A stretch of 64,000 nt of DNA, from IMG/VR virus record IMGVR_UViG_3300009093_000035, positions 124,001-188,000 of that record, one strand, 5' to 3'. The notes below the pieces were generated by a model, which saw only the letters and a list, made by a program, of their open reading frames with translations, did no database searches and had not been told where the DNA came from. The DNA comes from a virus. The translations under genes and the position numbers were made by a program. Below, in pieces: positions 5,516-62,496 of this stretch (position 1 is its first letter; the number at the start of each line of letters is the position of its first letter).

Positions 5516-5523
5516 TTACGCCC
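5516..5523 (-). promoter_or_regulatory. GGCGTAA motif, NUDIX leader
   Basis: Minus strand reads GTGGGCGTAAGGAG, 41 nt before ATG 5474. This copy lies in DNA that probably does not encode protein, which argues for a cis-acting role. Confidence 0.45.
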
Positions 5524-5640
5524 ACTCGGGGCGAGCGATAACGCTCGATCGAGGCGCCGACGTCGCGGTTGCAAATTTTTCGTAACCTTTCTCGATCGAT
5601 CGACTTCGGAAGGATTTTCGGACACTTCCGAGCCAAAAAT

Positions 5641-5656
5641 CGAATTCCAAAATTCG
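5641..5656. repeat. Perfect 6-bp inverted repeat, operator candidate
   Basis: CGAATT-CCAA-AATTCG lies in the AT-rich centre of the divergent gap, about 115 bp before the winged-helix-like gene at 5773. The symmetry suits a dimeric DNA-binding protein; no binder is proven. Confidence 0.4.
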
Positions 5657-5696
5657 CTGCTGTAGTAGGCCCGGAATTAGCTAGCGGTAGGGGCTC

Positions 5697-5716
5697 CTGG
5701 GCTTAGATAGGCCCAG
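5697..5716 (+). repeat. Stem-loop CTGGGC-N8-GCCCAG
   Basis: A 6-bp GC-rich stem with an 8-nt loop, about 55 bp upstream of the plus-strand gene at 5773. It has no T-tract, so a simple terminator is unlikely. It could be a leader RNA structure of the rightward transcript or a second operator. Confidence 0.35.
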
Positions 5717-5772
5717 TTCCGGAGTTCCCCCCTGGACCTCTTGGTTAAGACCCTACTCACAAAGGACTATCC

Positions 5773-6057
5773 ATGACCCTCGATTCCGCTCGTGTGTCCC
5801 ACCCCTCGACCAACGACCAGAACGTCTCCACCCCCGCTCCGGTGAAGACGAGACCGCGGTCGAGGGAAGCGAAGACGCTCTCGTACCTGAAGAGGCTCCA
5901 CTCTCTCCAGGCGTCCTCCCACGACGTCGCCCGCTACCTCGATCTTCCGAGCCCCTGGGGCCCGGCTCAGGCGGTCGCTTCTCTGGAGAAGCTGATCCGC
6001 GAGAAGAAGGTGAAGAAGGTGAAGTCGGGCGGAGAGACGAGATACCTCGCTCGCTGA
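5773..6057 (+). CDS. Small winged-helix-like DNA-binding protein
   Basis: A 94-residue protein on the plus strand, unlike its neighbours, from ATG 5773 with AAAGGA just upstream. The first 40 residues are Ser/Thr/Pro-rich and probably disordered. Residues about 35-94 ('AKTLSYLKRLHSLQASSHDV', then 'AQAVASLEKLIREKKVKKVK', then 'GGETRYLAR') read as helix, helix, recognition helix and a beta wing, the pattern of winged-helix regulators. Its position opposite the leftward operon with palindromes between suggests control of the divergent promoters. The fold is inferred from pattern only. Confidence 0.7.
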   Translation: MTLDSARVSHPSTNDQNVSTPAPVKTRPRSREAKTLSYLKRLHSLQASSHDVARYLDLPSPWGPAQAVASLEKLIREKKVKKVKSGGETRYLAR

Positions 6058-6076
6058 TCCATTCGTCCGAGGGGGG

Positions 6077-6274
6077 CTACAACCTGAGTCCGGGGATCGC
6101 CCAGTCTAGCCATCTCCGGACAAAGAAGACGGGAACGCATACCTCGTCCCCGTACCCGCCGCCGGGTCCTACGACCAGACACCTCACCCCATACAGGTCT
6201 ATGTACGTCCCGGTCGGGATAGGGATCTCGTGGAGCGTCGTCGCGGCGTACCACCTTGCCGTTTCGTCATCCAT
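6077..6274 (-). CDS. Small hypothetical protein
   Basis: A 65-residue protein from ATG 6274, overlapping the end of the upstream gene by 8 bp. It contains 'PIPTGTYIDLYGVRCLVVGP', a beta-rich stretch, and a C-terminal 'FFVRRWLDWAIPGL' helix. No family recognised. It converges with the plus-strand gene ending at 6057 across a 19-bp gap. Confidence 0.6.
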   Translation of the reverse strand: MDDETARWYAATTLHEIPIPTGTYIDLYGVRCLVVGPGGGYGDEVCVPVFFVRRWLDWAIPGLRL

Positions 6275-6689
6275 CCAAGAACGCCTTCAGCCTCGCGAGG
6301 AAGCCTCGGTCCACTCCCGGCAGGTGTGAGCGGCAAGCTCGTCCGTAAGGTTGAGGCTTCTTCGGTAGAATGGGGGCGTTGTCTTCGGTCTTCGAGAGCT
6401 TCTTCGGCTTCTCTTTTTCGACCGGCGTGTGCCAGGCGATCTCGGCGTCGGCCCCACAGCAACAATGCTGGTCCGCCAAGAAGTCGGGATCCTTCGTGAT
6501 GATCAGAGAGGAAGACCCCTCGCCCGAGCGCCTCTGCTCGACCGTCCCGGTTTCCGGGTACGGTTCCGCCTGACGTCGGGCGAGGTCCTCAGCGTCTTTC
6601 TCCCAGGTCGAGGGATCTCCGAGGCGCGAAAGAGCTTCCTCTCGCGAGATCTTCCTTCCCTCCAGGTTGGGATCGAGCGGCTTCGTCAT
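6267..6689 (-). CDS. Hypothetical protein with Cys/His cluster
   Basis: A 140-residue hydrophilic protein from ATG 6689. The centre holds 'QHCCCGADAEIAWHTPV' and later 'GRACRSHLPGV', a Cys/His set that could bind zinc. No assigned family. A GGCGTAA motif lies 9 nt before the start and there is no good Shine-Dalgarno sequence. Confidence 0.65.
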   Translation of the reverse strand: MTKPLDPNLEGRKISREEALSRLGDPSTWEKDAEDLARRQAEPYPETGTVEQRRSGEGSSSLIITKDPDFLADQHCCCGADAEIAWHTPVEKEKPKKLSKTEDNAPILPKKPQPYGRACRSHLPGVDRGFLARLKAFLDG

Positions 6690-6698
6690 ACGACGAAG

Positions 6699-6706
6699 TT
6701 ACGCCC
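6699..6706 (-). promoter_or_regulatory. GGCGTAA motif before 6689 gene
   Basis: Minus strand reads GTGAGGGCGTAACTTCG, overlapping the region just after the TGA of the gene at 6707 and 9 nt before ATG 6689. Confidence 0.4.
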
Positions 6707-6913
6707 TCACTGACCTTCGGGCGAAGGAACCGACCGTCCCTCGACGGTCGGACCCGAGACGGCTCCCGTCACCGGATCTCGGTTCAGGAAGAAAGTCGGC
6801 CGACCTTCCATATCGATGAAAGCGATCCAGGTCCGGTCTTCGGGCTCGATCCAGCCCTGCCAACCGCCGACCGCCACAGGATCCGAGTATCTCTTCACGA
6901 TGATGTTGTTCAC
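6707..6913 (-). CDS. Small hypothetical protein
   Basis: A 68-residue protein starting at GTG 6913 with AGGAG six bases upstream, which decides the start. It is beta-rich and Trp-rich ('GGWQGWIEPEDRTWIAFIDM', 'TFFLNRDPVTGAVSG'). No family recognised. Confidence 0.6.
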   Translation of the reverse strand: MNNIIVKRYSDPVAVGGWQGWIEPEDRTWIAFIDMEGRPTFFLNRDPVTGAVSGPTVEGRSVPSPEGQ

Positions 6914-6978
6914 GGGGATCTCCTAGTTGTGAGGAAGATCCACGAACATCCATCGTGGGTCGCTCGAACTGTACCCGC

Positions 6979-7212
6979 CTAGTCGGGCCTCTTCAAGTAG
7001 TAACGCCTGTGAACCCCGACCCCGTCAGAGGCGAGAATCTCCCCGCGCTTCCGAAGCCTCTCCAAGGACTCCGCGCAGAGCTTCCACCCCCAGACGCACT
7101 CCTTCCAGGAAGGTTGCTGGTCGAAGCTCAGGTACGGGTAGCTCTGGAGACACTTCAAGACGGACCGGTCGATGATTCGATCGACGGCTTCCGTCGCCTG
7201 CTCTCGCGTCAA
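6979..7212 (-). CDS. Small hypothetical protein, TTG start
   Basis: A 77-residue protein. The open frame reaches 7341, but a TTG at 7212 with GGAGG four bases upstream overlaps the TGA of the upstream gene (TTGA), which fixes the start ('MTREQATEAVDRIIDR'). The product is helical with 'WKECVWGWKLCAESLERLRK' and a basic C-terminus ('GVGVHRRYYLKRPD') that could be a small wing. Function unknown. Confidence 0.6.
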   Translation of the reverse strand: MTREQATEAVDRIIDRSVLKCLQSYPYLSFDQQPSWKECVWGWKLCAESLERLRKRGEILASDGVGVHRRYYLKRPD

Positions 7213-7421
7213 GGGACCTCCGGGAAACTTCGGTTGTACAGCTCCAAGGCCTGAGTGAGGAGACGCTGCTTCCAGGACAAGTCGTCCTCGTCGGGAGCCT
7301 CCGCGGCGGCCTCGATCGCGGTCCGATTTGCGACGACCCAATTGAGAACGGCCTGGTACTTCGCCGCCCTCTCGGTCTGAATCAATCGAGCCGCGCGTTG
7401 GGTCCAGTGACGACTGCTCAT
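7209..7421 (-). CDS. Small helical hypothetical protein
   Basis: A 70-residue, Ala-rich helical protein ('RAAKYQAVLNWVVANRTAIE') from ATG 7421. Its stop overlaps the TTG start of the next gene. Between the GGCGTAA motif and the ATG is a TGGCCT-AGA-AGGCCA hairpin (7421-7435), which would place the start codon at the base of a stem. Confidence 0.55.
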   Translation of the reverse strand: MSSRHWTQRAARLIQTERAAKYQAVLNWVVANRTAIEAAAEAPDEDDLSWKQRLLTQALELYNRSFPEVP

Positions 7422-7435
7422 GGCCTAGAAGGCCA

Positions 7436-7443
7436 TTACGCCT
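7436..7443 (-). promoter_or_regulatory. GGCGTAA motif before 7421 gene
   Basis: Minus strand reads CTCAAGGCGTAATGG, 14 nt before ATG 7421 and just after the TGA of the fibre gene. Confidence 0.4.
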
Positions 7444-7448
7444 TGAGG

Positions 7449-7784
7449 TCAGTAGCCGATCGCAGCGCGACGATTCGTGAAGAACGTCGACTGACCCGAG
7501 GTCGTGAGGTGGAGCCCGTCCCCGGCGAGATCACCGGTCGAGTACATCGACGCCCCGCTGATGATGGTGACGTTGACTCTCCCCACGGAGGCCACGGCGT
7601 TCGTCTGAGCCGTCACGAACTGAGCGAAGGTCTGGCCCAACCCGTTCGTCGAGATGTCCGTACGGGGACCGAGGGTCTGTACGAAGACGTGGGTGAAGTA
7701 GGGCGCGACGAGCGTCAGAAGCTGGGTGAGGGCTGTCTGGTAGTCGGAGACGAGAGCCCACTGAGAGAGGCCGAAGTCATTCGT
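7449..7784 (-). pseudogene. Detached SGNH C-terminal fragment
   Basis: This frame continues directly from the TGA ending the 7785-9173 protein, in the same phase. It begins 'TNDFGLSQWALVSDYQTALT' and contains the SGNH block V segment 'GDGLHLTTSGQ' before its own TGA at 7449. Without the TGA, the joined product would be about 574 residues with blocks I, III and V of an SGNH esterase. The fragment has no good start near its beginning (first candidate is a TTG at 7640), so it is either made by readthrough or is dead. Confidence 0.65.
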
Positions 7785-9173: not shown

Positions 9174-9176
9174 CGT

Positions 9177-9617
9177 TCAGCTCACTGGCGTGACGAGGAC
9201 GATCTTGTTCGGGACGTCGATTCGAACGAGCCACGACCCCGCGGCAGCGTTCGCGCTCCCGAAGAGCGTGTAGTCGGAGTTGAGACCACCTGGGGTCGTC
9301 CAACCGGCCGAACCGCCTGAAGTGACGTCGATCGTGATCCCGAAAGCGGCGGTGTTCGTCTTCATAACCGTGAAGGCCATCGAAGACGGAGCCACTCTCG
9401 CGTCGATCTTCCGAGTCGCCGTCGGGGTGAACTGGACGATCGGCTCGTTTGCGTTGAAGATCGCGAGAGCCGAGTAGTCCGCGTCATGAGCCGCAGGCGG
9501 GTTCGCAATCGAAGTCGCGTTCGCCGCGACGTCCGAAGTCCCGAGAGCGCCGATCGCGTCCCGAGCGCTCTGCTGAGTAGCTCCGATAGCCTGGAAGAGT
9601 TTTCGGGGGGATGCCAT
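9177..9617 (-). CDS. Short tail-fibre/adaptor with shared N-terminal anchor
   Basis: A 146-residue protein from ATG 9617 beginning 'MASPRKLFQAIGATQQSARD', almost identical to the start of the plus-strand fibre at 11586. The remainder is a small beta-rich domain (about residues 55-146). The shared head piece suggests a virion attachment anchor, with the variable part binding receptor or partner fibre. It ends 4 bp before the SGNH fibre gene, so the two are probably co-made. Confidence 0.7.
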   Translation of the reverse strand: MASPRKLFQAIGATQQSARDAIGALGTSDVAANATSIANPPAAHDADYSALAIFNANEPIVQFTPTATRKIDARVAPSSMAFTVMKTNTAAFGITIDVTSGGSAGWTTPGGLNSDYTLFGSANAAAGSWLVRIDVPNKIVLVTPVS

Positions 9618-9651
9618 ACCCCCTACGGACCCTTATAGGCTAGCCAACCTG

Positions 9652-9969: not shown

Positions 9970-9977
9970 GGACAACC

Positions 9978-10956: not shown

Positions 10957-10970
10957 GACCAACTCGCTTT

Positions 10971-11005
10971 CTCGGGCCTAGCCCTACCTCGACTTTACGC
11001 CCGAG
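10971..11005. repeat. 7-bp inverted repeat around GGCGTAA motif
   Basis: CTCGGGC (10971-10977) and GCCCGAG (10999-11005) are perfect complements with a 21-nt spacer containing the motif copy at 10995. It could fold in the leader of the 10956 gene. Confidence 0.3.
10995..11002 (-). promoter_or_regulatory. GGCGTAA motif before 10956 gene
   Basis: Minus strand reads GCTCGGGCGTAAAG, 38 nt before ATG 10956; the same 14-mer recurs at 16379. Confidence 0.4.
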
Positions 11006-11010
11006 CACGA

Positions 11011-11504: not shown

Positions 11505-11585
11505 GAGGAACCTCCGGCGGGACTCTACCTTCCGCCCATCGTAGAAAATCGCCTCGCTTGAGTGATTATAGAGTCTCCGAAGGAT

Positions 11586-13046
11586 ATGGTGCCCCCTCGA
11601 AAACTCTTTCAAGCTATCGGCGCCACCCAGCAGAGCGCGCGAGACGCGATCGCCGCCATCGCGGCCTCCGACGTCGGTGGAAGCGCTCCTGGTCCCTGGG
11701 CCTCGGTCCTTTACGTCGACCAGGTTCGAGGAAACAACACCACCGCTCAGCGAGGGAACGAGAATTTCCCGTTCGCGACGATTCAGGCAGCACTCAACGC
11801 GATGCAAACCGACGACACGGTCATGCTCGCACCCCAGCTCTTCACGATCACCGCAACGCTCACGGTGCCGGCGACGGTCGTGCGCGGCAGTATCTGCGGA
11901 GTCGGGCCATCCGGCGATTACGGCAACCCAGCAACGAGCGGTCCACTGACTAAGCTCGTATCTACTACGACCGATCTTTGGAACTTCGGCGCGAATCTCG
12001 GCTTGACACAATGGGTCATGTCAAACTTCTCGATGCGCACAACCCTCGCGGGCTCTTCGTGCATCCTCGCCGACGGATCGTCATACGCAAAGGCGACGTT
12101 CTTCGGTGCCGGCGGCGGCCTGACCTTGCGGAGCATGGTGCTCCGCAGCGCCAACGGCGCAAACGTGATGAACGTGAAGTATGCCGTCGGCGTCCAGCTC
12201 TTCGACGTTTGGAACACGGGCGGGAACTACTTGTTCACTACCGGAGCGGCGGTGACACTCGACCAGTTCCGCGGGACAGGAACGACAGTCACCACGACCA
12301 ACGACTCGTCTGACCCGCTAGCGATAAGCAACCAATACGCACTACAGATCCAGAACGGTACTCACATCGGCACGAGCGCATTCGGCACTGGTGTCGTCAT
12401 CGGCGGACAGACGAGCCTCAATCAGGACGAGACCTCGATCATCGGTGTTCTGAGTGGCTCTTCACTCTCCGTAGTCGGCTCGGGCAAGCCCGCTTGTGTC
12501 TGCGACGGTTGGATCGGCTCGATCGACTTCGCGAGCGCGGGCAAGGAGATCCCCGACACCGCGCTAGTGCTCTCGTTCATCTTCCAGGGCGCGCGCCTTT
12601 ACCAGAACGGTTTCACCACCATTACACCTGGCGTGTTCAAGGCGAAGGTTGGTGGTTCGGCCGTGAACTTCCAGTCAATGAATATTGACTCTACGACCAC
12701 AGTGCCTGGCGCTACAATCACGGCGGACGCAGCGATTCACATCACAGGACGCGGCGCTCGCTGGCCGAACGTCACGCTCGCGACGCCCGGTACAACGGGC
12801 GACATCATCCCGCCGATCCTCGCTGGCGTGATCGACCTCTCGGCTGGCGGTGCCGTGGCGAAGACGTGGGTTCAGCTCGGTATCCCCGGGCTGATCCGTG
12901 TCGGCGCCGCTCCAAACGAAGCGTTCCTCACGCCGAACATCCGCGGGGCTGACGCCGCAATCACCGTGAAGTCAACCACTGGACTCACTTTCGATTCGGC
13001 AGCGGTCGCGAACAACGCCTGCAACTGGCAGGCCATCTGGAACTGA
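11586..13046 (+). CDS. Right-handed beta-helix tail fibre on plus strand
   Basis: A 486-residue protein from ATG 11586, chosen because its 'VPPRKLFQAIGATQQSARDA' start aligns with the anchor of the fibre at 9617. Residues about 45-130 open a beta-helix ('VLYVDQVRGNNTTAQRGNEN', 'FATIQAALNAMQTDDTVMLA'), followed by long Gly/Ser/Thr-rich coils typical of fibres that bind or cut surface polysaccharides. It is one of three plus-strand genes. Beyond the anchor it uses more A-ending codons (GCA, ACA, CAA) than neighbours, suggesting a swapped-in body. It converges on the gene ending at 13057 with a 10-bp gap. Confidence 0.8.
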   Translation: MVPPRKLFQAIGATQQSARDAIAAIAASDVGGSAPGPWASVLYVDQVRGNNTTAQRGNENFPFATIQAALNAMQTDDTVMLAPQLFTITATLTVPATVVRGSICGVGPSGDYGNPATSGPLTKLVSTTTDLWNFGANLGLTQWVMSNFSMRTTLAGSSCILADGSSYAKATFFGAGGGLTLRSMVLRSANGANVMNVKYAVGVQLFDVWNTGGNYLFTTGAAVTLDQFRGTGTTVTTTNDSSDPLAISNQYALQIQNGTHIGTSAFGTGVVIGGQTSLNQDETSIIGVLSGSSLSVVGSGKPACVCDGWIGSIDFASAGKEIPDTALVLSFIFQGARLYQNGFTTITPGVFKAKVGGSAVNFQSMNIDSTTTVPGATITADAAIHITGRGARWPNVTLATPGTTGDIIPPILAGVIDLSAGGAVAKTWVQLGIPGLIRVGAAPNEAFLTPNIRGADAAITVKSTTGLTFDSAAVANNACNWQAIWN

Positions 13047-13056
13047 GGAACTCTTC

Positions 13057-13449
13057 CTAGGGCCAGGTCGAGATCGCTCCAGCGTTGATCGCCAAGTGGA
13101 GCACGTTGTCCGCGAGGATCAATAACCACCCCGCTAGCCAGTCGGGCTTATCCTTCTTGTACCCGTGCCAGGCGGCCTCTCCCCACGGATACCGGTACGT
13201 GGCGGGAGCGATCTGGTTCTTCGCCCACACGAGGTACCGAGCGAGTCGGTAGCGGTCGATCAAGGCGTGGGTGATGCAGATCACTGCGAGCGCGATCGGA
13301 GACCGTGTCACGAGTAGGAAGGGGAGCGAGTAGACGACCGCATGCCAGAAGGCGACGAGAAGGCTCTTCGTCTTCTCCGAGGCCATGTGGTCCGTCTGGA
13401 GGAGATAGTCGCCCGTTCCGTGACAGATCAGAACCCAGAGTCCTAGCAT
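13057..13449 (-). CDS. DUF3307-like membrane protein
   Basis: A 130-residue protein from ATG 13449. The N-terminus 'LICHGTGDYLLQTDHMASEK' with following 'FWHAVVYSLPFLLV' matches the His-containing membrane pattern of DUF3307. About three hydrophobic segments suggest an inner-membrane protein. Known members are bacterial and phage proteins of unknown function. Confidence 0.7.
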   Translation of the reverse strand: MLGLWVLICHGTGDYLLQTDHMASEKTKSLLVAFWHAVVYSLPFLLVTRSPIALAVICITHALIDRYRLARYLVWAKNQIAPATYRYPWGEAAWHGYKKDKPDWLAGWLLILADNVLHLAINAGAISTWP

Positions 13450-13466
13450 CCACTACGGTACCGAGA

Positions 13467-13889
13467 TCACTCCCACCTCACCCGACCCGGAACAGAAGGG
13501 ACCCAGACCGGAAGGCCGTACGAGAGCCGGTTCTGGTCGACGTGGTAGTTGTTGACCCACTGGTAGATAGGCTTGTCGAGCCCGCCTCTCTCGTACACCT
13601 TCCCCATCGACTTGAACGCCCCTCGGAACAGTCTCTTGAAGACGCCTTCGGCGTCCACCTTGTTCTGCTCTTCTTCCCCAGATACGTTGAAGAGAAGACG
13701 GTTCCGGACGCCTGTCTTCGGGCAGACGAAGTGCCACTCGCCCTCCACCCAATAGTCGCCCTCGGTACATCCGGATGGGCTCACATACCAATGGGTCGCG
13801 ATCGCGTCGAGAGATCCGACCTGGTGGTGGCCGTAACAGGACATGCACCGAATCGTCTTCTGACTCGGGTCCGCCTTCGGGTCGCTCAT
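13467..13889 (-). CDS. Hypothetical protein with zinc knuckle
   Basis: A 140-residue protein from ATG 13889. It has an N-terminal 'RCMSCYGHHQVGS' and a central 'GEWHFVCPKTGVRNRLLF', a possible split zinc site, and a basic, aromatic C-terminus. No family recognised. Start overlaps the upstream stop (ATGA). Confidence 0.65.
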   Translation of the reverse strand: MSDPKADPSQKTIRCMSCYGHHQVGSLDAIATHWYVSPSGCTEGDYWVEGEWHFVCPKTGVRNRLLFNVSGEEEQNKVDAEGVFKRLFRGAFKSMGKVYERGGLDKPIYQWVNNYHVDQNRLSYGLPVWVPSVPGRVRWE

Positions 13890-14997: not shown

Positions 14998-15005
14998 TTA
15001 CGCCT
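14998..15005 (-). promoter_or_regulatory. GGCGTAA motif before 14989 gene
   Basis: Minus strand reads CGCTGAGGCGTAAGG, 8 nt before ATG 14989. Here the TGA is the stop of the upstream gene, whereas at 18858 the TAA is, so the DNA motif is kept in different reading frames. Confidence 0.45.
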
Positions 15006-16378: not shown

Positions 16379-16386
16379 TTACGCCC
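16379..16386 (-). promoter_or_regulatory. GGCGTAA motif before 16369 gene
   Basis: Minus strand reads GCTCGGGCGTAAAGG, 9 nt before GTG 16369; identical over 14 bases to the copy at 10995. Confidence 0.45.
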
Positions 16387-16389
16387 GAG

Positions 16390-16704
16390 CTACTGGGCGT
16401 ACTCACCTACGCTCACCAGGGCGAGGCCTACGAGCCCCAAGGCGACCCCGAACCAGCTGAGAGGGGAAAGCCGTTCCCCGAAGAACCAGGCCCCCGCGAG
16501 CGCCCCGAGGACGTACGTCAGGACCCCGTAGACCGCGACCATCTTCGTGAGCGAAGCTCCTCGTTGGCCGAGAAGGACGGCCCAGGCCGCTCCGCAGATC
16601 CCATACACGAAGAACGCGACCCAGGGCCGGGAGGCGCGAGCCGAGACGTCCGCAATCATGTTGAAGAGAACGAGGACGACGACGTAGGCGGGCCAGTACC
16701 TCAT
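16390..16704 (-). CDS. SMR/EamA-like four-helix membrane transporter
   Basis: A 104-residue protein from ATG 16704 with four hydrophobic helices, the size of small multidrug resistance proteins. The ending 'WFFGERLSPLSWFGVALGLV' resembles the last helices of SMR/EamA transporters, where 'GE' follows helix 3. The conserved early Glu of EmrE-type exporters is not seen in helix 1 (an Asp is at position 19). It may transport a metabolite or alter the host membrane; an unusual phage cargo. Confidence 0.6.
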   Translation of the reverse strand: MRYWPAYVVVLVLFNMIADVSARASRPWVAFFVYGICGAAWAVLLGQRGASLTKMVAVYGVLTYVLGALAGAWFFGERLSPLSWFGVALGLVGLALVSVGEYAQ

Positions 16705-16902
16705 TCAGTCCTTCAGAGCGTTCAAGACGCGGGAGATCTGCCACTTCGAGTGATCGGCGTCCGGGTACTCCTGGATCATGTGATCCAACATGAGGCGGAG
16801 CGCTTCCCGTTCTTTCGGATCCGCCCGGCACAGCGCGACCATCGTCTCGTCACTCACCTTCGTGAGAGAGTCCGGAGAGAACTCGGCACTCTTCCGCTTC
16901 AT
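16705..16902 (-). CDS. Small hypothetical protein
   Basis: A 65-residue helical protein ('MKRKSAEFSPDSLTKVSDET') from ATG 16902, between the RLAH-motif gene and the transporter gene. The longer upstream frame overlaps the RLAH gene. No family recognised. Confidence 0.5.
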   Translation of the reverse strand: MKRKSAEFSPDSLTKVSDETMVALCRADPKEREALRLMLDHMIQEYPDADHSKWQISRVLNALKD

Positions 16903-16907
16903 TCGAG

Positions 16908-17435
16908 TCACCGGGCCGCCGCCCGGAGACAATGCTCTACGAAGTCGGAAGGCGGGCGAACGGCGTGCTTCTCGATGTAGTGGGCGAAGCCCTCGGGCCA
17001 GACGTAGGAGTCGTCGGTGAGGTCGGCCGAACCGTTCCGTACGCCGCACATCCTACAGTCCGACCATCCTCGGTACTGAGAAGCCGTCTTCCCGCCCCGG
17101 ACGTAGCTGAGGACGATCTCCCGTTCCGAGGCGTCCCAAGTCGGGTCTACGCTCGTCTCTACGGCCGGAAGGTCCATCTCCCCCGAGCCCTCGTAGATCC
17201 CCCACGAGGCCGGTACGGGCTTCCAGAAGCCGACCTTCGGTAGGCTCGCGAGTCTCTCGTTCCGCGCTCGGATCTTCGCGATCTCCGCGTCGGCCGGGAG
17301 CGCGTACTGATCCAACCCCCCTCGGGTCATCCTGATCACGCTCGCTTGCCTACCCACCAGAAGCGGGAGGAGAAACGGACGAAGCTCGGGCTTCGAGTGA
17401 GCCAGCCGGATCGTCTTCGATCGGAGATCGGTCAT
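16908..17435 (-). CDS. Phage protein with RLAH motif and Cys domain
   Basis: A 175-residue protein from ATG 17435 starting 'MTDLRSKTIRLAHSKPELRP'. The C-terminal domain ('SYVRGGKTASQYRGWSDCRM', then 'GSADLTDDSYVWPEGFAHYI') is a pattern I recall from many phage and bacterial hypothetical proteins. A CxxC and His may bind metal. Third of four copies of the motif in the window. Confidence 0.7.
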   Translation of the reverse strand: MTDLRSKTIRLAHSKPELRPFLLPLLVGRQASVIRMTRGGLDQYALPADAEIAKIRARNERLASLPKVGFWKPVPASWGIYEGSGEMDLPAVETSVDPTWDASEREIVLSYVRGGKTASQYRGWSDCRMCGVRNGSADLTDDSYVWPEGFAHYIEKHAVRPPSDFVEHCLRAAAR

Positions 17436-18857: not shown

Positions 18858-18865
18858 TTACGCCT
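18858..18865 (-). promoter_or_regulatory. GGCGTAA motif before 18847 gene
   Basis: Minus strand reads CCCTGAGGCGTAAGG, 10 nt before ATG 18847; the TAA doubles as the stop of the upstream gene. Confidence 0.45.
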
Positions 18866-19071: not shown

Positions 19072-19079
19072 TTACGCCT
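19072..19079 (-). promoter_or_regulatory. GGCGTAA motif before 19040 gene
   Basis: Minus strand reads CCCTGAGGCGTAAGTCC, 31 nt before ATG 19040; part of a 21-bp repeat with 18858-18878. Confidence 0.4.
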
Positions 19080-19346: not shown

Positions 19347-19354
19347 TTACGCTC
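19347..19354 (-). promoter_or_regulatory. GCGTAA motif before 19329 gene
   Basis: Minus strand reads CTCGGAGCGTAATAGG, 17 nt before ATG 19329 and just past the capsid terminator, where a new transcript would be expected to start. Confidence 0.45.
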
Positions 19355-25737: not shown

Positions 25738-28700
25738 CTACCAATTCCACTCCAGGGACGAAGTCTTGTTGGAAGACCCCGTATCGATGTCCAAATCCAC
25801 CAAGTCCCCGATCGCATCCTGTACCTGGGACTCGTAAGGAGCCTTCTCTTCCGACTCGGACGAATCGCCCGGACCGGAGAAATCGGTGGGCTTCGACCTC
25901 GAAGGAGCCTTCTCCCGACGCATCTCGGTAAGAGGCTCTCTCTCGGAAGCCGCGTCTTCTACAGCTACGTTCGTGAGAAGCTCGGTGAAGACGTCGTGAG
26001 CGTTGCGGACGCGCTCCCGCTGAGACGCCTTCAATCCAGAGAAGGGCCAGACGTAGTCGGCCTCATCCTCAGAGTCTTCCCCGTCGTAGATCTTCCGCCA
26101 AGACGCCGCGAGCTTCCCGCTCGGGTCTACCGCCTCCAGCGCCTTCTCCATCTGCTCCGGTTGAAGCTTCCGGACCATGTCAGAGACGACTTCGGCAGAA
26201 GGCTCGGAACCGGGAACTCCCAACCCGGCCTCAATCATGTCGGAGACGTCTACACCGCTCTCCTTCAAAGACCGAAGCATCGTCCTCGTCCCCGTAGGAA
26301 TCGAAGACTCTGAGTCGTCGTCGCCCTCTAGGGCCGACGAAAGCTCCAAGGCTCGATGGTCGGCGGCGAGGTACCCCATCCGGTTCCGGAGCTGTTCCAG
26401 TTCCTTCTGGTCCGCCTCGCGCTCTTCGGGAGACTGGGGCGCTCCGCTGTTGGAGGAGAGCTTCTCTTCGAGGTCCGAGATCTTGTCCTGAGTATCCGTT
26501 CGAACCCGGGCGAAGGTCTTCTTCGTCTCAGCCCGATCGTCCGGAGACATCCCATCGAACCGCTCGACCGTCTTCGAGGTTCGCTCCTTCACCCCGGCCT
26601 TATCGATCGGAGACGAGGTGTCTCCGATGTAGGTCATCGGGTTACGGGCTGCCTCAGCCGTAGCCGCATGAACGAAGAACTTCGAGAAGCTCGACTGGAG
26701 TTCCTTCTCCACCTGGTCGCGCTTCTCGGTGAGCTGGAGGATCCGATCACCTTGGGTCTTCGCGAAGCTCCGCTTCAACCCCTCGATCTCGTCGTTGAGG
26801 TCTTCGTACTTCGACTTCAGCTTCTCGATCTTCTCTGGGGACGGGGGCTTCTTCGTCGAAGGGGAGTTCCCCGCGGCCATCCTACCGATCGCTTCGTCGC
26901 GATCTGCCGTCAGCTTCTCTACGAACTTCTCGGCGTCCTCGGTCGTCATCTGCTCGGTCAGAGAATCGAGCGTCGACTTCACGAAACGTGAGTCCTCCTT
27001 CGAGAAAGCCGGGGAGTCCTTCACGGACTGGGCCTTCTGATGGATCTCCGAGCGGCGGCGCTTATCCAGCTCCTCCGCCTCGTCCCTCTTGTACTGAGCC
27101 TCTTCCTCAGCGTCCGCGTCCTCTTGCTGCTTCTTCGGGTCGGGAGGCGCCTCCCCGGACTCAGGCTTCGGTTCTGGCTTTGGGGGCTTCGGAGGAAGGC
27201 CCTTCAGATCTCTCTTCCGGGCCTCTTCCTGCTCGCGCTTCTTCTTCCGAAGCTTGTCTTCCTTCGAGCCCTCTTCTTCGAACTCCTTCGCCTTCTCGGC
27301 CCACTCGGCGCGGATCCGCTTCTGTTCCTCGTCCGGGAGACTCTGGAACTTCACGTCTTTGTTGGTCTCTTTGTTGTGGAAGGTCTTCCCCTCCACGGAC
27401 TCCAGGAATTCGTCATCCTCTTCTGAGTCCAAGGCCAACAAGTACCGAGAGGCCACGCGACTCGGGGCCGTCATGAAGTAGGCCATCGCTACTCGAAGGG
27501 CGACCTTCTTGTAGTTCAGGGAGAGATCGTCGTCGGTGGCGTCGAGGTCCTTGTCCCCCGAGTCCACCCGGTGGTTCTGGAGATCTTTCCGAGGGGGCTT
27601 CTTCTTCGGCTCCGGCTTCAGAAGAGCTTCCGTCGCCTCGTCTTCCTTCTCTGCTTCGGTCTTCGTGGCGGACTTCGACTCCTTGAAGGAAGAGAGGATC
27701 GTCCCATCCTTCATGAAGGCGTCTTCGAGACCGGGGACCAGGTAGTCCGAACGAAGGGTCGCCTTCTCGTGGCCGACGATGTCCGCGACCTCTTCGAGGG
27801 CGTCCGCGAACTCCTTCTTCAGGATCTTGTCCCGCTCCTTCCGAGCGCGTGGGAGATCCGGGCCCTCTTTCCGCTGTTCGCGGAGGGCCTTGCACATCTC
27901 CTGATTCGCTCGGAGCCCGCGGATGTCCTTCGCGGTGATGTCGAACTCGCTGAGGTAGTCGTTCACCGCCTCCGGCTTCACCGTGTAGTCGTCCCGGCTG
28001 AGCAGGCAATCGTCGCCCTTCTTCCCCTCAGCCAGCTCCTTCAGGAGCTTCACGACCGGAGCCGACTCGACCACCTTCTCGTGCTTCACGCCGGACTTTC
28101 CGACGTACTTCAGGGTCGCTTTCGACCCAGAGAACGAGATGTGCTTCTTACGCCACCCCGTCACCCCGTAGTGGCCTTCTTCGGCCGACCCCTCATTCCC
28201 TACCCGCTCGCACGTCTCGTCCATCAGAGCGGCGGCGAGGGCGGGGAGAGCTACCTTCGGGTCCTTCGAAGAGATGTCCTTCTTGATCATCTTCCGAAGG
28301 TCGCTGAGGTCCTTCCGAAGACGTTCGATCCGTTCGGCCTTCTCCGAGTGCCGGTTCGCTACCTGGCGATCGCTGTACTCGTAGTGGACATTCCCCTCGT
28401 CGTCCTTCGTCTTGGACTTGTACCGAGCCGCTACGACAACGGCCGAGGCCAGTCTCGCGGAAAGGGGCGGGGGACAATCGACGTCATGACGAGCGACCGT
28501 AACCAGGTGGGGGACGCAAGACCTACCGTTCGACTCGATCCAGTCGGCGAACGTGCGTAGGTGGCCCAGGCGGTCTTCCCAGATCGCCACGCCTCGGATC
28601 GAAGGCTGCTTCGAGAGGATCTTCTTGATCGTCTCCAGCTTGAATCTCTCGGTATCCGTGTCTCCGGGGGACAGGTAGATCTCCTGGAAGTCGAGACCGG

Positions 28701-40372: not shown

Positions 40373-40984
40373 TCAGTCGATCACGCAGTCGATCCGAGAA
40401 GTCGGAGTCCGACGGCGACGAACTTCCCTCATGATGTTGAGGTTGTCCGCGATCATCTTGAAGATGTCCGAGTAGAAAGCCATCGACTCGTCGGCCGACA
40501 TCTTCTTGATCGAACGAATGAACCGGTGTCGGACGAGCCCCTGCGAAACCTTCAGTCGCTTCGCGCTCTCGCTCTGACACGTCGTCTCGTACATGAACAT
40601 CATGATGTCGATGTCCATGGGGTCTGTCATGAACCGGGAGAGATCCGCTCTCATCTGAACCACATCCACCTTCGGGAGGATCAGAAGGAACTTGATTCGA
40701 TCGATCGCTCGATAGAGACGATAGCAGACTGTGGGTTGACTCACCCCGAAGATCGACGCGATGTCGGTCTGCTTGACATGCTTGAAGAAGTACATGTCCA
40801 TGAAGTCGGCTTCGACGGGAGGGAGGAGGTCGAGCATCCCCTTCACCTTGTCCATCATCTTGACGTCGTCCTCGTCAGGCTCGGTGAACACCGAACCGAA
40901 GTACGAGAGGGAGTCCTCCGTAGAGAACACCGCGTCCGGATCAAACGAGGCGGCTGAGCCCCGAAAATTTTGACTCGTCTTCAT
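40373..40984 (-). CDS. Sigma-factor-like protein with two HTH segments
   Basis: A 203-residue protein from ATG 40984. Residues about 50-105 ('LLPPVEADFMDMYFFKHVKQ', 'TDIASIFGVSQPTVCYRLYR') match sigma region 4 / LuxR-type HTH with a preceding helix. A second HTH follows at about 120-165 ('ESAKRLKVSQGLVRHRFIRS'). There is no region 2, so it may act as a DNA-binding activator or partial sigma factor. It could direct phage RNA synthesis, and lies next to a NusG-like gene. Confidence 0.75.
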   Translation of the reverse strand: MKTSQNFRGSAASFDPDAVFSTEDSLSYFGSVFTEPDEDDVKMMDKVKGMLDLLPPVEADFMDMYFFKHVKQTDIASIFGVSQPTVCYRLYRAIDRIKFLLILPKVDVVQMRADLSRFMTDPMDIDIMMFMYETTCQSESAKRLKVSQGLVRHRFIRSIKKMSADESMAFYSDIFKMIADNLNIMREVRRRRTPTSRIDCVID

Positions 40985-43723: not shown

Positions 43724-44448
43724 GCTGCTTCTCCTAGAAAGACACGTCTCATGTTTCGAATCCCGCCAGCGGACCAGACCTCTCCGGGATCTTTGCCTCG
43801 GTACCGGTAGTCGGTAGCTCTCAGACCGGACTTCCGTAGGAGGGTGAGAGCGCCAGGATGTTTCTTTCCTGTCTTCTCATCTTCCCAACCGAGCGTTGCT
43901 TTACGCCCCGTCGCATCGTTGTCGTACACCATATACACTTGGTTCTGAAGAAACCTTGTAAGGAAGTCCAGGTGAGACCGAGAAAGACGCGCGGTCAGCG
44001 TCGCTATCACGACGTCGGTATCCGGGACTATCATCCTCATCGGAAGAAGGTCGAAGATCCCTTCAGTGACCCAGACCGAACCCCCCTCCCACATCTTCCT
44101 CGCTGCCTCAGGGGCGTTCACCATGACCGGATTCCATCTCGCTTCCGGAGTCCGGAACTCTGAGATGGCTTTCTCGGCCATCGACCGGGCCTCAACCCCG
44201 ATCAGGCCTCCGCTCGGCGACAGGAGCGGGTAGACCAATCGACCAGTCCACCGCTCTCCACGATTTCCGTACCGCTCTCGAAAGAGGGGGTCTGGAGCCG
44301 TGGTATTCGCCGGGACCCACTCTACGAATCGGAAGTGCTCGATGGCCTCTGGAGTAGCCCCTCTCCCGAGGAGGTACCCCTCGGCTTCTTCAGACAGAGA
44401 GAGATTCCGGAGATGGTCTGATAGCCAGAGCGCGATCTCCGAGGTCAC
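43720..44448 (-). CDS. DnaG-like primase, Toprim domain
   Basis: A 242-residue protein starting at GTG 44448, which overlaps the upstream TGA. The frame is open further upstream, but that part is within the previous gene. N-terminal 'GYLLGRGATPEAIEHFRFVE' resembles the DnaG linker; Toprim follows: 'VWVTEGIFDLLPMRM' (Glu), 'YMVYDNDATGRKAT' (DxD-type) and a 'GKDPGEVW' end. There is no N-terminal zinc finger, so it is shorter than bacterial DnaG (about 580); a separate zinc protein may be used. Makes RNA primers. Confidence 0.8.
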   Translation of the reverse strand: MTSEIALWLSDHLRNLSLSEEAEGYLLGRGATPEAIEHFRFVEWVPANTTAPDPLFRERYGNRGERWTGRLVYPLLSPSGGLIGVEARSMAEKAISEFRTPEARWNPVMVNAPEAARKMWEGGSVWVTEGIFDLLPMRMIVPDTDVVIATLTARLSRSHLDFLTRFLQNQVYMVYDNDATGRKATLGWEDEKTGKKHPGALTLLRKSGLRATDYRYRGKDPGEVWSAGGIRNMRRVFLGEAA

Positions 44449-47728: not shown

Positions 47729-47736
47729 TTACGTCT
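47729..47736 (-). promoter_or_regulatory. GACGTAA variant motif before 47717 gene
   Basis: Minus strand reads AAGACGTAAAGGGGAG, 11 nt before GTG 47717. It differs from the consensus by one base; the AAAGGGGAG also gives a ribosome site. Confidence 0.3.
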
Positions 47737-54682: not shown

Positions 54683-54690
54683 TTACGCTC
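54683..54690 (-). promoter_or_regulatory. GCGTAA motif upstream of SSB gene
   Basis: Minus strand reads TTAGAGCGTAAAGAGG, 74 nt before ATG 54608 and before the leader hairpin, just after the stop of the coiled-coil gene. Confidence 0.35.
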
Positions 54691-54693
54691 TAA

Positions 54694-58287: not shown

Positions 58288-58769
58288 CGGCGAGGGTTCT
58301 TGAGCTTGTTCAAGGTTTCGATGAGTCCGATCAGGTCCTTCGAGAGGTCGTCCGGAGAGAGGGGACCCTTCAGATCGAGCTTCGAAGGCATCACGAAGAA
58401 CTTGCATCGGTGACCCACGAGGTATTCGAGAGGAGGGAAGTTCAGTCCGGGGATCTCCCACCAAGAACCCTTCTTCCGAAGGACGCCTGTACCATACATA
58501 CAGAGCAAGCTCTTCCAGGGATCGATGTGGTGTCCGTACCCGCAAACCCCCGAAGATTGAAGGGCGCAAGATCCAAACCCCCAAACATCTCTCTTCCAGG
58601 TAGGTCCCGTAGGCCCCATATCTGGAAGATGAGCGATCAGGGCATACACCTCTTGACCCTCAAACACGGAGAAATCGAGGGTCTCGGCCTGACCGTCTTT
58701 CTCACAAAGCAAGAGGGCCCCGTCCGTGAAGACGAGACCCTCTGACACGATGTTAGGAATCGAACTCAC
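58284..58769 (-). CDS. Conserved phage protein, VWGFGSCAL family
   Basis: A 161-residue protein from GTG 58769. 'FSVFEGQEVYALIAHLPD', 'KRDVWGFGSCALQSSGVCGY' and 'GHHIDPWKSLLCMYGTGVLR' form a pattern I recall from other phages of unknown function. Cys/His pairs could bind metal. Directly upstream of recD. Confidence 0.65.
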   Translation of the reverse strand: MSSIPNIVSEGLVFTDGALLLCEKDGQAETLDFSVFEGQEVYALIAHLPDMGPTGPTWKRDVWGFGSCALQSSGVCGYGHHIDPWKSLLCMYGTGVLRKKGSWWEIPGLNFPPLEYLVGHRCKFFVMPSKLDLKGPLSPDDLSKDLIGLIETLNKLKNPRR

Positions 58770-58778
58770 GATTCCTTG

Positions 58779-58786
58779 TTACGCTT
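58779..58786 (-). promoter_or_regulatory. GCGTAA motif before 58769 gene
   Basis: Minus strand reads CAGAAGCGTAACAAGG, 9 nt before GTG 58769; it carries one mismatch (AGCG for GGCG). Confidence 0.35.
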
Positions 58787-58803
58787 CTGAAAGGAAAAGG
58801 GAA

Positions 58804-60732
58804 TCAGATCTCGCAGGCACCGCCTACACAAGCGGCTTCCTGGGCTCCATTCCCCTCGTCCATCGTCTCGTAGAACGAGAGTTCGTTGAAGTGAACCGCG
58901 GGCATCGAGGCCACGGCCTCATTGTACTGATCCTCGGTCAGCTCCACGTACGGAGCGAGCTTGTAGAGGCCGCCGTCGTGGGGAAGGAAAGAGAGACCGG
59001 TGACGGAGTCGAAGTGGTTCCAGAGCCACTCCCCGACCGGACCCCACTCCTCGTCGCGGACGTAGATCGTAGCCGACTGGTTGTGGCCCTTGTCGCCACA
59101 CCAGGTCTCCATGATCTTCAGATAGCGTTCGAGCTGGTCGAGCGCCTTCTCGTCGTGGCGGGTCATCGCCCCTTCCGGAGCGCGGACGGGGAACCGAGCG
59201 ACCCAGACGTCCACGTCCTTGTCTTCGAGGTGCTCCTGGCCGTTCTCCTTGAAGACCGGGACGCCGAAGTCGCGGATCAGGCGGAAGAGCGGATCCTTCG
59301 CCGAGATCCGGACGTGACGGAAGTAGAACTTCGCGTAGCGGGGGTGGAAGCCCGAAGCGCAGTCCACGAACTGAGAGGAGTTCCCCGAGGGCTTCCCGCA
59401 GGTCACCGCTGCCGGACGATTGATCCCGATCTGATCGGCCGCGAGGATCGCCGTCGAACGCGCGATCGCGTTGAGGTAGGTCATCGAGTCCTTGTCCCCG
59501 GAGAGAGCCGGGTTGTCGCACTGACCCGTGATGTCCACTCCGAGAAGACGGTCCTCGTCGCAGAGTTCGGCCCAAGCCGGACGCAGGTACGGGAAGTGGG
59601 TGTAGCTGGACTGGACCGACCCGATCCAGGTCGCGATCCGGATCTTCTCCGCCATCGTCTCGACCGTGTCGTGGGAGCGCATCACCGCCGCCGTGAGGTT
59701 GCAGAACTGACCGCCGCCGCCCTCGCCTGTCCACGGGTCGAGCGCGCGCTTGAAGCGGAGGAGGATCTCCCCACACGGATTCGAGCGGAACTCGCCGCCA
59801 CGCTTCAGGCGCTTCTCGGGACCCGTGATGTAGAACCCGCGCTCCCCCGAGCCCGACTTCGCGAGCGCGTTCCACTCGCGATCGAAGACCTCGCGCGTCG
59901 GCTTCTCTTCGAAGACTGCCGAGTTGTTCGCCATGTAGCGAATCGTCGGGAACTGGCCGAGGCTCCAGTCCTTCGCCTGACGCATCTCCGTGTCGTCCGG
60001 ATCCGAGAACGAGATCAGAGAGGCGCGGCGGAACCCGCCGACCATGACGATCTCCGCGATCATGCACATGATGTCGTGGGCCTCGACGGACTTCAGCCCG
60101 CGGCCGACCGCCCCGCGAATCGTCTCGCGTGAGAAGTCCAGAACGCGCTTCAACGGCTCCGGACCCGAAGCCCGCCCGCCCTTCGTCTTCAGCCGAGCGC
60201 CCTTCGGACGGATCCGATCGTAGTGGAACGTCACGTCGTCACCGCGATGGAAGGCGGTGATGCCGAAGAAGACCGCGTCCGCCCAGCCCTCGGTCGAGTC
60301 CTGGATGACGTAGTCGACGCTGTTCCCTGTCGACTCGGAGATCTTCGGGAGGTTGTCCACGAACGTTCGCTCGACCGAGAATCCGACGCCCGTGCCCTGC
60401 ATCAGGATGTAGAGGGCCTCGGAGAACGCCTTCAGGTTGTCCACCGGAAGGAAGGAGCAGTTGTAGCCGCACGTGTTGTCGCGAGTCATCGCGTCGCCCG
60501 CACACCAGAGCGAACGCATCGACGGCATCACGTCGAGATTCAGGATCGCGTCGTAGGCCTTCTGCTGAAGGTCGTTCGGGACGTTCTTCCCGCGGAAGAT
60601 GAAGTTGACGTAGCGTGACACCGTCTCCGGCCACGACTCCCTACGTCTCTCTTCCTCCAGCCACCTACTGTAGGTGCGCGTGTAGACGAACTCACTCAGT
60701 AGATTCGGGAAAGAGAAACCCGCTTCGAGCAT
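58804..60732 (-). CDS. nrdJ: Class II (B12-dependent) ribonucleotide reductase
   Basis: A 642-residue protein from ATG 60732. Signatures: 'DNTCGYNCSFLPVDN' (Cys pair), 'LMQGTGVGFSVERTFVDNLP', 'GEFRSNPCGEI' (active-site Cys), and the C-terminal Cys pair 'ACVGGACEI' used for thiol exchange. The single-chain length and lack of an NrdA/B partner point to the adenosylcobalamin-dependent reductase as in Lactobacillus leichmannii. It reduces ribonucleoside triphosphates to deoxy forms, with or without oxygen, if the host supplies B12. Follows a terminator and starts the next leftward unit. Confidence 0.92.
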   Translation of the reverse strand: MLEAGFSFPNLLSEFVYTRTYSRWLEEERRRESWPETVSRYVNFIFRGKNVPNDLQQKAYDAILNLDVMPSMRSLWCAGDAMTRDNTCGYNCSFLPVDNLKAFSEALYILMQGTGVGFSVERTFVDNLPKISESTGNSVDYVIQDSTEGWADAVFFGITAFHRGDDVTFHYDRIRPKGARLKTKGGRASGPEPLKRVLDFSRETIRGAVGRGLKSVEAHDIMCMIAEIVMVGGFRRASLISFSDPDDTEMRQAKDWSLGQFPTIRYMANNSAVFEEKPTREVFDREWNALAKSGSGERGFYITGPEKRLKRGGEFRSNPCGEILLRFKRALDPWTGEGGGGQFCNLTAAVMRSHDTVETMAEKIRIATWIGSVQSSYTHFPYLRPAWAELCDEDRLLGVDITGQCDNPALSGDKDSMTYLNAIARSTAILAADQIGINRPAAVTCGKPSGNSSQFVDCASGFHPRYAKFYFRHVRISAKDPLFRLIRDFGVPVFKENGQEHLEDKDVDVWVARFPVRAPEGAMTRHDEKALDQLERYLKIMETWCGDKGHNQSATIYVRDEEWGPVGEWLWNHFDSVTGLSFLPHDGGLYKLAPYVELTEDQYNEAVASMPAVHFNELSFYETMDEGNGAQEAACVGGACEI

Positions 60733-60758
60733 GTGTCAACCCCGTGGTTTGAAGAACG

Positions 60759-60791
60759 AAAAAAAGGGACGAGTCTGGGGATCCCGTCCTT
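60759..60791 (-). terminator. Rho-independent terminator
   Basis: On the minus strand AAGGACG ... CGTCCCT (7-bp stem with one wobble, containing GGGATCCC in the loop) is followed by seven T, 27 bp before the RNR start. It should end transcription of the HolA/HolB unit. Confidence 0.75.
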
Positions 60792-60893
60792 CTTGAGAAT
60801 CAAGAGGCAGGTCCTCAGTCTACCAACTCCACACTCATCGAATGGAGGCGAAGTAGGTAAAGACCGAGGCACATTTACCAAGAAACCGAGACA
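60792..60893. other. Gap without evident gene
   Basis: No believable ORF between the terminator and the clamp-loader gene. It contains no promoter I can support; the RNR promoter may lie here or in the terminator DNA. Confidence 0.4.
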
Positions 60894-61847
60894 TCACCCC
60901 GCCAGCAGATTCAGCAACGCGGACTCTAGGTACGAGAAGGGGGAGATGGAACCCTGGAACACGAGTGTCTGAGATTCCGCTACGACACGAATCAACTTCG
61001 CACACCCGGATACCTTCCACTGAAGAGCGCACGGGAGAATCTTGTTCTCCCAGTACCAGGGATTCGCCCCCACACTTCTCGCCGCCGACTCGGGAGACAT
61101 CTTCAGTTCGGAGAGGTGTGCTGCCTGTAGCCATCGAGTCAGCGCCGGGGTTAGAACCCTACCGCACAACTCGATCGTTGAGTCACCACCGCGAGAATTT
61201 TTGTACTTGGTCATCTCCAACACGAAACGGCGACGATCTCTTGATCCGAGCGCGTCCGCGATCGCGTTCCCGTCCGTCTCGGCGATTGGTGCCATCGTCT
61301 CTCGAAGATGAGCCGCTGTGATCGTCGCGGCGGAGCCCGCGAGTAGACTCGCCTTCTGGACTTCGAAGGAGATCATGCCCAGGTCGATCCCGACTCTCTT
61401 CACCAGGGAGAGCGCGAGGTCGAAGTCCAGAGGGTTCCCTCGGGTCCGAGCTTCACTCACGGCGAAGTTCGCCGCGTACTCGTCCATCTTGTAGAAGGCA
61501 GGGAGGGTGAAGATCTTCGTCTTCGCCTTCGGCACGAGATCGAAGACCGGGCCGGAAGGCTTGTCTTCCTCCGAGACGAGAAGGAAAGTGATCGAGGGGT
61601 CTTCGGACGCGATGTGCTGGGTGAGCGTAGGTAGCGGGAGCTTCTCCGGACTCCTCACCACCACTAGGTTCTGAGAGGTGAACATCACCGACATGGAGAA
61701 CACGGTCTCCAAGGCATCCTTGTCGCCCCCCTCTATCTCGGTGACCGCCCATCCCTCCGAGGCGCGAGTTGAGCTGATCTTCGAGATCAGTCTTCGCCTC
61801 TGGTACTCGTCGGACCCAGCCACCAGCAATACAGGTTCGGCTTTCAC
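60894..61847 (-). CDS. holA: Clamp loader delta subunit (HolA-like)
   Basis: A 317-residue protein from GTG 61847. 'LLVAGSDEYQRRRLISKI' and 'SMSVMFTSQNLVVVRSPEKL' match the HolA opening (the 'FLF..Rl..v' delta pattern), followed by helical domains and a C-terminal 'LKMSPESAARSVGANPWYWE' collar part. It opens the sliding clamp within the loader. The gene follows holB by a one-base overlap (TAGTG). Confidence 0.75.
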   Translation of the reverse strand: MKAEPVLLVAGSDEYQRRRLISKISSTRASEGWAVTEIEGGDKDALETVFSMSVMFTSQNLVVVRSPEKLPLPTLTQHIASEDPSITFLLVSEEDKPSGPVFDLVPKAKTKIFTLPAFYKMDEYAANFAVSEARTRGNPLDFDLALSLVKRVGIDLGMISFEVQKASLLAGSAATITAAHLRETMAPIAETDGNAIADALGSRDRRRFVLEMTKYKNSRGGDSTIELCGRVLTPALTRWLQAAHLSELKMSPESAARSVGANPWYWENKILPCALQWKVSGCAKLIRVVAESQTLVFQGSISPFSYLESALLNLLAG

Positions 61848-62476
61848 TAGACCCCCACCAAGAAAGCCGCGAGGACTCGGGCCGGGGTAAGGGCCGTCCG
61901 CCGCGTGTGTAGATCACGTACGGAGCCCCAGAGAGCTAGGAGGTCGTTCCGTAGGTTCGGATCCGAAAGACCCTCCTGGATGGCTTCTACGAGCGCGAGG
62001 AGCACAAACTCCTCGTCCCCCTTCGACTCCTTCAGCTCGGAGACGATCTCGGACCAGTTCTTCCCCAGGTAGGCCTTCAGGAGCCGGTCGGCCTGGGTAC
62101 GGCTAAGCGAGACCCGCTCGTCCACCCCCGGAACGAACGTGTGGAGGGTCCGAGACCGAAGAGTGGGGATCACCCCACCGAAGTCCCACGCCCAGAGGAA
62201 GGGTCGAATCTTCCCCGGTACGAACTCCTCGATCGTCTTGAGAAGGACGTCCCCCACCTCGGGAGTGATCTCGTCCAGAGGACCGACCACTACACCCCAA
62301 GGCTTCTCTCCGATCGGAGTCTGACTCAGAAGAGACACCAACTCTCGGGCGTCCCCCTTCTTCATAGCCTCCCCAGAAGTACCGAAAGGAAGAACTAGCC
62401 CATATTCCTTGGCCTCATTCTTCGCTGCGGCTTCTGACCCCGGGCCGTGATAGAGTGATACGGATCCGATCTCCAT
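61847..62476 (-). CDS. holB: Clamp loader delta' subunit (HolB-like)
   Basis: A 209-residue protein from ATG 62476, shorter than bacterial HolB (about 330). 'PWGVVVGPLDEITPEVGDVL' and 'LKTIEEFVPGKIRPFLWAWD' match the delta' 'A..LLK.LEEP....F' pattern, and 'VIPTLRSRTL' the SRC region. There is no P-loop, which suits delta'. Together with dnaX and holA gives a full loader. Confidence 0.7.
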   Translation of the reverse strand: MEIGSVSLYHGPGSEAAAKNEAKEYGLVLPFGTSGEAMKKGDARELVSLLSQTPIGEKPWGVVVGPLDEITPEVGDVLLKTIEEFVPGKIRPFLWAWDFGGVIPTLRSRTLHTFVPGVDERVSLSRTQADRLLKAYLGKNWSEIVSELKESKGDEEFVLLALVEAIQEGLSDPNLRNDLLALWGSVRDLHTRRTALTPARVLAAFLVGV

Positions 62477-62488
62477 GAGAACGGAACC

Positions 62489-62496
62489 TTACGCCC
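62489..62496 (-). promoter_or_regulatory. GGCGTAA motif before holB
   Basis: Minus strand reads CTCTAGGGCGTAAGGTTCC, 12 nt before ATG 62476; it follows the TAG of the gene to its right. Confidence 0.45.

Follow-up and report, generated by a model that had tools for sequence, protein, structure and literature searches.

GGCGTAA at gene starts in a jumbo-phage genome

We analyzed a 64-kb window (bases 124001-188000) of the 248,579-bp virus record IMGVR_UViG_3300009093_000035, which we call G000. G000 carries a phage terminase, a portal, and a head-maturation protease, and is a jumbo-phage record. According to the original prediction, the string GGCGTAA or a one-mismatch form of it is repeated at gene boundaries in the window. 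Indeed, all nine of the exact sites that it listed are present, as are four one-mismatch sites. We found two more exact copies (at 28148 and 43901), which brings the total to 11; in shuffled sequences, the mean was 3.26 and the largest number was 8. The sites are listed below, with distances measured to a start codon that opens an open reading frame (ORF) of at least 40 codons.

5516..5522, minus strand: GGCGTAA, 41 nt before ATG 5474 (NUDIX gene); a class 2 bipartite element (described below) follows directly downstream
6699..6705, minus strand: GGCGTAA, 9 nt before ATG 6689 (140 aa)
7436..7442, minus strand: GGCGTAA, 14 nt before ATG 7421 (70 aa)
10995..11001, minus strand: GGCGTAA, 38 nt before ATG 10956 (83 aa); leadered or doubtful
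14998..15004, minus strand: GGCGTAA, 8 nt before ATG 14989 (90 aa)
16379..16385, minus strand: GGCGTAA, 9 nt before GTG 16369 (90 aa)
18858..18864, minus strand: GGCGTAA, 10 nt before ATG 18847 (394 aa, DUF4419)
19072..19078, minus strand: GGCGTAA, 7 nt before GTG 19064 (68 aa)
19347..19353, minus strand: AGCGTAA, 17 nt before ATG 19329 (85 aa)
28148..28154, minus strand: GGCGTAA, inside a gene of 1078 aa; probably chance
43901..43907, minus strand: GGCGTAA, not followed by a start; probably chance
47729..47735, minus strand: GACGTAA, 11 nt before GTG 47717 (88 aa); a weakly enriched variant
54683..54689, minus strand: AGCGTAA, 37 nt before an ORF in an alternative frame; no convincing start, probably chance
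58779..58785, minus strand: AGCGTAA, 9 nt before GTG 58769 (161 aa)
62489..62495, minus strand: GGCGTAA, 12 nt before ATG 62476 (209 aa, with a weak match to DNA polymerase III delta)

A comparison of gene boundaries with gene interiors had been set beforehand as one test that could refute the prediction. Boundaries make up 12.7% of the window and hold 9 of the 11 exact copies (binomial P ~ 4e-7). The window holds 94 one-mismatch forms, 14 of them at boundaries, so forms this common need to be picked with care. The copies were also said to lie close before minus-strand starts, and this holds for 10 of the 13 predicted sites, which are 7-17 nt from a start; the exceptions are at 5516 (41 nt), 10995 (38 nt), and 54683 (37 nt, and weak). 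The TGA at 14998 and the TAA at 18858 do serve as stop codons within their copies of the element, as had been noted.

The original prediction also emphasized that every copy was on the minus strand. This is true of all 11 exact copies in the window, but it means little because 247 of the 282 genes in G000 are on the minus strand. Across the entire record, GGCGTAA occurs 28 times on the minus strand and 3 times on the plus strand, which matches what gene orientation predicts (28/31, P = 0.45), and in a relative whose genes are split between the two strands, GGCGTAA is found on both. We therefore set strand bias aside as evidence: the informative signal is the placement before start codons, rather than the strand. 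We also rejected a structured RNA as the origin of the element, as an Rfam search of the window gave no match. Judged by title, none of the seven papers found to pair the string GGCGTAA with phage concerns a phage promoter.

A start-linked element shared by related phages

Relatives of the G000 protease are encoded by G001 (199 kb), G002 (253 kb), G003 (167 kb), G006 (266 kb), the fragment G004 (41 kb), and the 485-kb uncultured phage LR745208. We compared six records (G000, G001, G002, G003, G004, and G006). Their gene starts are approximate because we called the genes with our own purpose-written coding-potential program.

With no motif chosen beforehand, we tested 3,667-4,077 hexamers for a tendency to end 6-12 nt ahead of an ATG or GTG at the head of an ORF (40 codons or more). 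GCGTAA ranked first separately in each of G000, G001, G002, G003, and G006. In the pooled six records, 126 of 291 copies of GCGTAA were start-linked, with 28.1 expected (z = 19.4), and neither its reverse complement (16/291) nor the reversed string (22/218) showed an excess over background. If we dispense with both the ORF condition and the gene caller, ATG peaks 8 nt after GCGTAA (36 cases, 2.9 expected) and GTG is about twofold over expectation at 8-9 nt, while TTG and CTG are not above expectation in the same count.

The consensus of the element is [G/A]GGCGTAA-n-G-t, with GTAA as its core. Among single-base variants, changes to the core are not tolerated (GGCGTAC, GGCGTAG, and GGCGTAT are at background or close to it), but some changes to the first three positions are: AGCGTAA, TGCGTAA, and GGAGTAA remain start-enriched. 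Over the six genomes, AGCGTAA was start-linked in 18 of 55 cases (5.3 expected) and GACGTAA only weakly so (7 of 50, 4.8 expected). We found neither a -35 nor any other element at a fixed distance upstream: across the 48 nt that precede the motif, no column exceeded 0.15 bits.

The element extends to LR745208 in the form GNGTAA: the top start-linked hexamers in that genome include GTGTAA, GAGTAA, and GCGTAA, with the ATG at 7-8 nt. We did not see the element in Tunturi_5 (193 kb), where just 2 of 48 copies of GCGTAA were start-linked.

A second element, bipartite and promoter-like, occurs in four of the records; its spacing is rigid and its sequence is specific to each genome:

G000, about 20 sites: TGTA-N18-GTTAC, for example window 5485..5511 on the minus strand (class 2, separate from GGCGTAA)
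G001, 11 sites: GTAA-N16-CGCTT
G002, 22 sites: GTAA-N16-CGTTA
G003, 14 sites: GTTA-N18-CGTG

These bipartite elements lie shortly before starts, are frequently followed by a Shine-Dalgarno sequence, and are perhaps an early class. In addition, GTAGAGT (which is TAnnnT-like) lies 12-60 nt before starts at 82262, 95193, 116582, 123323, 135528, and 158560 of G000, on the minus strand. Several of these sites are in structural regions, and GTAGAGT is possibly a late or host-type promoter.

The GGCGTAA element itself is nearly identical across phages that range from 56 to 65% GC and that have differing bipartite promoters, and which presumably have different hosts. This near-constancy counts against the idea that the host's primary sigma factor reads the element as an extended -10 (GGCG-TAAcgt, resembling TAnnnT) to give leaderless mRNAs. 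A phage sigma factor would then be unnecessary, although promoters of the -35 class might nonetheless be blocked by a factor from the phage. TAAcGt does fit TAnnnT at the right distance, and T is raised to about 0.4 at the sixth position. Yet that T is optional here, and the third position, which is free in TAnnnT, is fixed, as the GGCGTAC, GGCGTAG, and GGCGTAT variants illustrate. Nor is GGCG known to us as an extended -10 sequence. A precedent in favor of host recognition comes from the Thermus phage P23-45, whose gp39 spares extended -10 promoters (PMC7403470). Overall, we consider reading by the host sigma factor to be unlikely.

Two distance classes, Shine-Dalgarno sequences, and RNA genes

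The distances from the motif to the start codon fall into two classes: 55 genes are at 7-12 nt and 3 are at 13-17 nt, and then there is a spread that begins at 18 nt (18-60 nt). We compared Shine-Dalgarno sequences between the classes using starts that were called without them. The frequencies were 15% in the near class and 62% in the far class, compared with 43% among other genes (P = 4.6e-7, Fisher's exact test). Few Shine-Dalgarno sequences and a fixed distance to ATG or GTG, but not to TTG, are the pattern of a leaderless promoter. The two classes would arise because transcription from the promoter starts 8-10 bp downstream, so that the mRNA either begins at the start codon or has space for a leader that includes a Shine-Dalgarno sequence.

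The element also precedes a few RNA genes. GGCGTAA lies upstream of 3 of the 72 RNA genes that head a run (0.22 expected, P = 0.0014). These three sites are before the tmRNA of G001, the tmRNA of G002, and a lone tRNA of G006. Furthermore, GGCGTAA is commonest at divergent starts (24/129, versus 5/272 for tightly abutting genes). As for the RNA genes more generally, 46 of them, including a tmRNA, were called in G000 at 188442-199553 and 224337; G001 and G002 have similar arrays, and G003 and G006 have one tRNA each. Two GGCGTAA strings in or next to the tmRNA stretch of G000 are not promoter-like.

The original prediction had left open whether the element is a near-leaderless promoter or acts in translation. 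A translation-initiation element in the mRNA might replace the Shine-Dalgarno sequence, in the manner of the start-associated sequences of cluster K phages (PMC3203893), which are likewise short asymmetric repeats, oriented with the genes, just upstream of many starts. A distance of 8-9 nt to the ATG would suit a ribosome as well, and most genes with the motif do lack a Shine-Dalgarno sequence. But copies at 18-60 nt are coupled to a Shine-Dalgarno sequence, tRNA and tmRNA genes are preceded by copies, divergent starts are enriched, and TTG starts are not linked. By inspection, the motif is not complementary to the usual 3' end of 16S rRNA. We also rejected identity with the cluster K sequence, because the consensus differs from the GGGATAGGAGCCC type: GGGATAGGAGCCC has a Shine-Dalgarno-like core, unlike GGCGTAA, which also precedes RNA genes. 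A role in translation is thus improbable.

Alternatively, the motif could be an operator for a repressor or a site of RNA processing by an endonuclease, placed beside starts. Short asymmetric motifs can bind a repressor, and cleavage at the motif could also yield near-leaderless ends. Against this, there is no other promoter-like element at a fixed spacing within 50 nt upstream, the motif has no symmetry, and processing leaves the far class and its Shine-Dalgarno sequences unexplained. We regard both roles as very improbable.

The near-leaderless promoter fares best: the element is 8-9 nt before ATG or GTG, near-class genes have few Shine-Dalgarno sequences, RNA genes are preceded by it, and it is conserved in the clade. 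We conclude that GGCGTAA is very probably a promoter and that the near class likely gives leaderless mRNAs. The ATG at 8-9 nt suggests that the transcription start site is near the start codon. Specifically, RNA polymerase would start about 8-9 bp downstream of GCGTAA. For most linked genes, this would be the first base (A or G) of the start codon, and the mRNA would be leaderless or nearly so, and therefore would not need a Shine-Dalgarno sequence. If GTAAcg spans -12 to -7, then the A of an ATG that is 8 nt after GCGTAA would be exactly at +1. When the element is 18-60 nt upstream, it would instead give a short leader that carries a Shine-Dalgarno sequence, and a few copies would drive tRNA or tmRNA genes.

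Mycobacteria provide a parallel: leaderless initiation in mycobacteria requires an ATG or GTG start, and they have both -10 elements just before ATG or GTG with no Shine-Dalgarno sequence and a leadered class with one (PMC4633059). There, the -10 hexamer and the sigma factor are the host's, unlike the fixed GTAA core that we found. Thermus phage P23-45 has extended -10 middle and late promoters (PMC7403470), which resemble our element in that they have no -35; they differ in motif and are read by the host's primary sigma factor. As with the mRNAs that we predict, the mRNAs from these promoters are reportedly leaderless (Berdygulova 2011).

The genes in the window that have the element include NUDIX, DUF4419, and clamp-loader-like genes and small proteins with no assigned function. 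The structural modules of G003 and G006 have no copies (0/28 and 0/57; P = 3e-4 and 2e-5), and those of G000 hold four. As the virion-structure modules of G003 and G006 lack it, the element serves non-structural genes, and so it is probably an early-to-middle promoter.

Candidate readers of the element

A phage-encoded factor that reads the element is plausible. We rejected a multisubunit RNA polymerase like the beta/beta-prime proteins of phiKZ, because none of the six records had a match to PF00562 (controls were positive, 14/14). For the single-subunit, T7-like RNA polymerase, PF00940 had no match in any of the six records, nor in the controls. Jumbo phages such as AR9 and phiKZ also have short phage-specific elements at their late promoters, but those are read by a phage multisubunit RNA polymerase, and AR9 leaders are at least 26 nt (PMC5312081).

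Two conserved proteins are candidates:

Protein A, window 40373..40984, minus strand: 203 aa, with a Sigma70 region 4 domain above the Pfam cut-off
Protein B, G000 204484-205281, plus strand: a divergent ECF-like protein

Protein A is present in all six records and in LR745208, and its gene is about 7 kb from the terminase. It has a second, weaker region-4-like helix-turn-helix, which is seen in orthologues, and no region 2. It is possibly a co-factor of the reader.

The four large relatives (G001, G002, G003, and G006) all have a conserved protein B, and both A and B are encoded by LR745208. In Tunturi_5, we found a relative of neither protein. The conserved block of protein B (VEDHVQTFL...LRVWAYQSA.TE.R.WGVDA) looks ECF-like in our reading. 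PF04542 (region 2) had no match in G000 or in six members of the protein B family, and at the C terminus, PF08281 scored 14.8 bits, below the cut-off of 25.7. Sequence searches of the PDB and of PHROG with protein B gave spurious matches only. Structure models had a pLDDT of 65 at full length (low confidence) and 78 for the N domain. Their best fold matches in the PDB were ECF sigma factors (sigma-H, sigma-L, and region 2 of sigma-E), including the top six matches (E = 0.9-5); none was significant. Foldseek E values ranged from 0.2 to 10 overall, and the matches include 9m7y_F, from a gp79-dependent complex, at E = 0.33. The sole tie between protein B and the motif is their shared occurrence.

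Three genomes have a single-copy hairpin or palindrome, CCCGAAAGTC-ACT-GACTTCAGGG, about 20-30 nt ahead of the protein B start (G000 204437-204459, G001 74058-74080, and G002 98438-98460); the loop differs in G002. In phage 7-11 as well, a stem-loop precedes the sigma gene (PMC8948821).

Some of the records encode sigma factors beyond A and B (full sigma-70 or ECF-type), at 16544-17326 and near 260000 in G006, 12893-13675 in G003, and 316-1122 in G001. The sigma-70 proteins are 260 aa in G003 and G006 and 268 aa in G001. Two records have an additional true sigma-70, and the sigma-70 gene of G006 is itself preceded by GGCGTAA. We rejected the Sigma70 proteins of G003, G006, and G001 as a universal reader because none was found in G000 by PF04542, tblastn, or phmmer.

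The closest precedent appears to be phage phiEco32, whose single-element middle and late promoters (tAATGTAtA) are read by the phage sigma factor gp36, with the start 6-8 bp downstream (PMC8948821). In both systems, there is one element (here GGCGTAAcGt) and no -35, GTA is shared at the core, and the genome has a sigma factor or a candidate for one; the start just downstream would be another similarity, to judge from the sequence. Unlike phiEco32, with its six known promoters, the clade has over 100 start-linked copies, and most of them would put the start codon at the transcription start. Also, we rejected homology of protein B to gp36, as hhalign gave the alignment with the protein B family a probability of just 0.4%.

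ECF sigma factors often recognize -10 elements with a GT.AA-type core. The likeliest reader of GGCGTAA would be the host's RNA polymerase core with protein B, possibly assisted by protein A with its tandem region-4 domains. The chance that a phage sigma factor reads the element, most likely protein B, seems to us close to even, and the identity of the sigma factor is the weakest part of our model. The model as a whole, in which a single-element promoter of the -10 kind is used by host core polymerase with a phage ECF-like sigma factor to express leaderless genes, is on balance probable.

More tentatively, a clade of jumbo phages of about 160-485 kb may run its non-structural genes from its own promoter system, with a highly divergent ECF-type sigma factor, a possible tandem region-4 partner, a GTAA-core -10 that acts alone, transcription that starts on the start codon, and leaderless translation. 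If so, then the start sites, start codons, and regulatory logic of uncultured giant phages could be read from sequence, and start-codon calls in these genomes would improve. Two unannotated protein families would be named as likely transcription factors, and leaderless translation would be a general strategy of jumbo phages.
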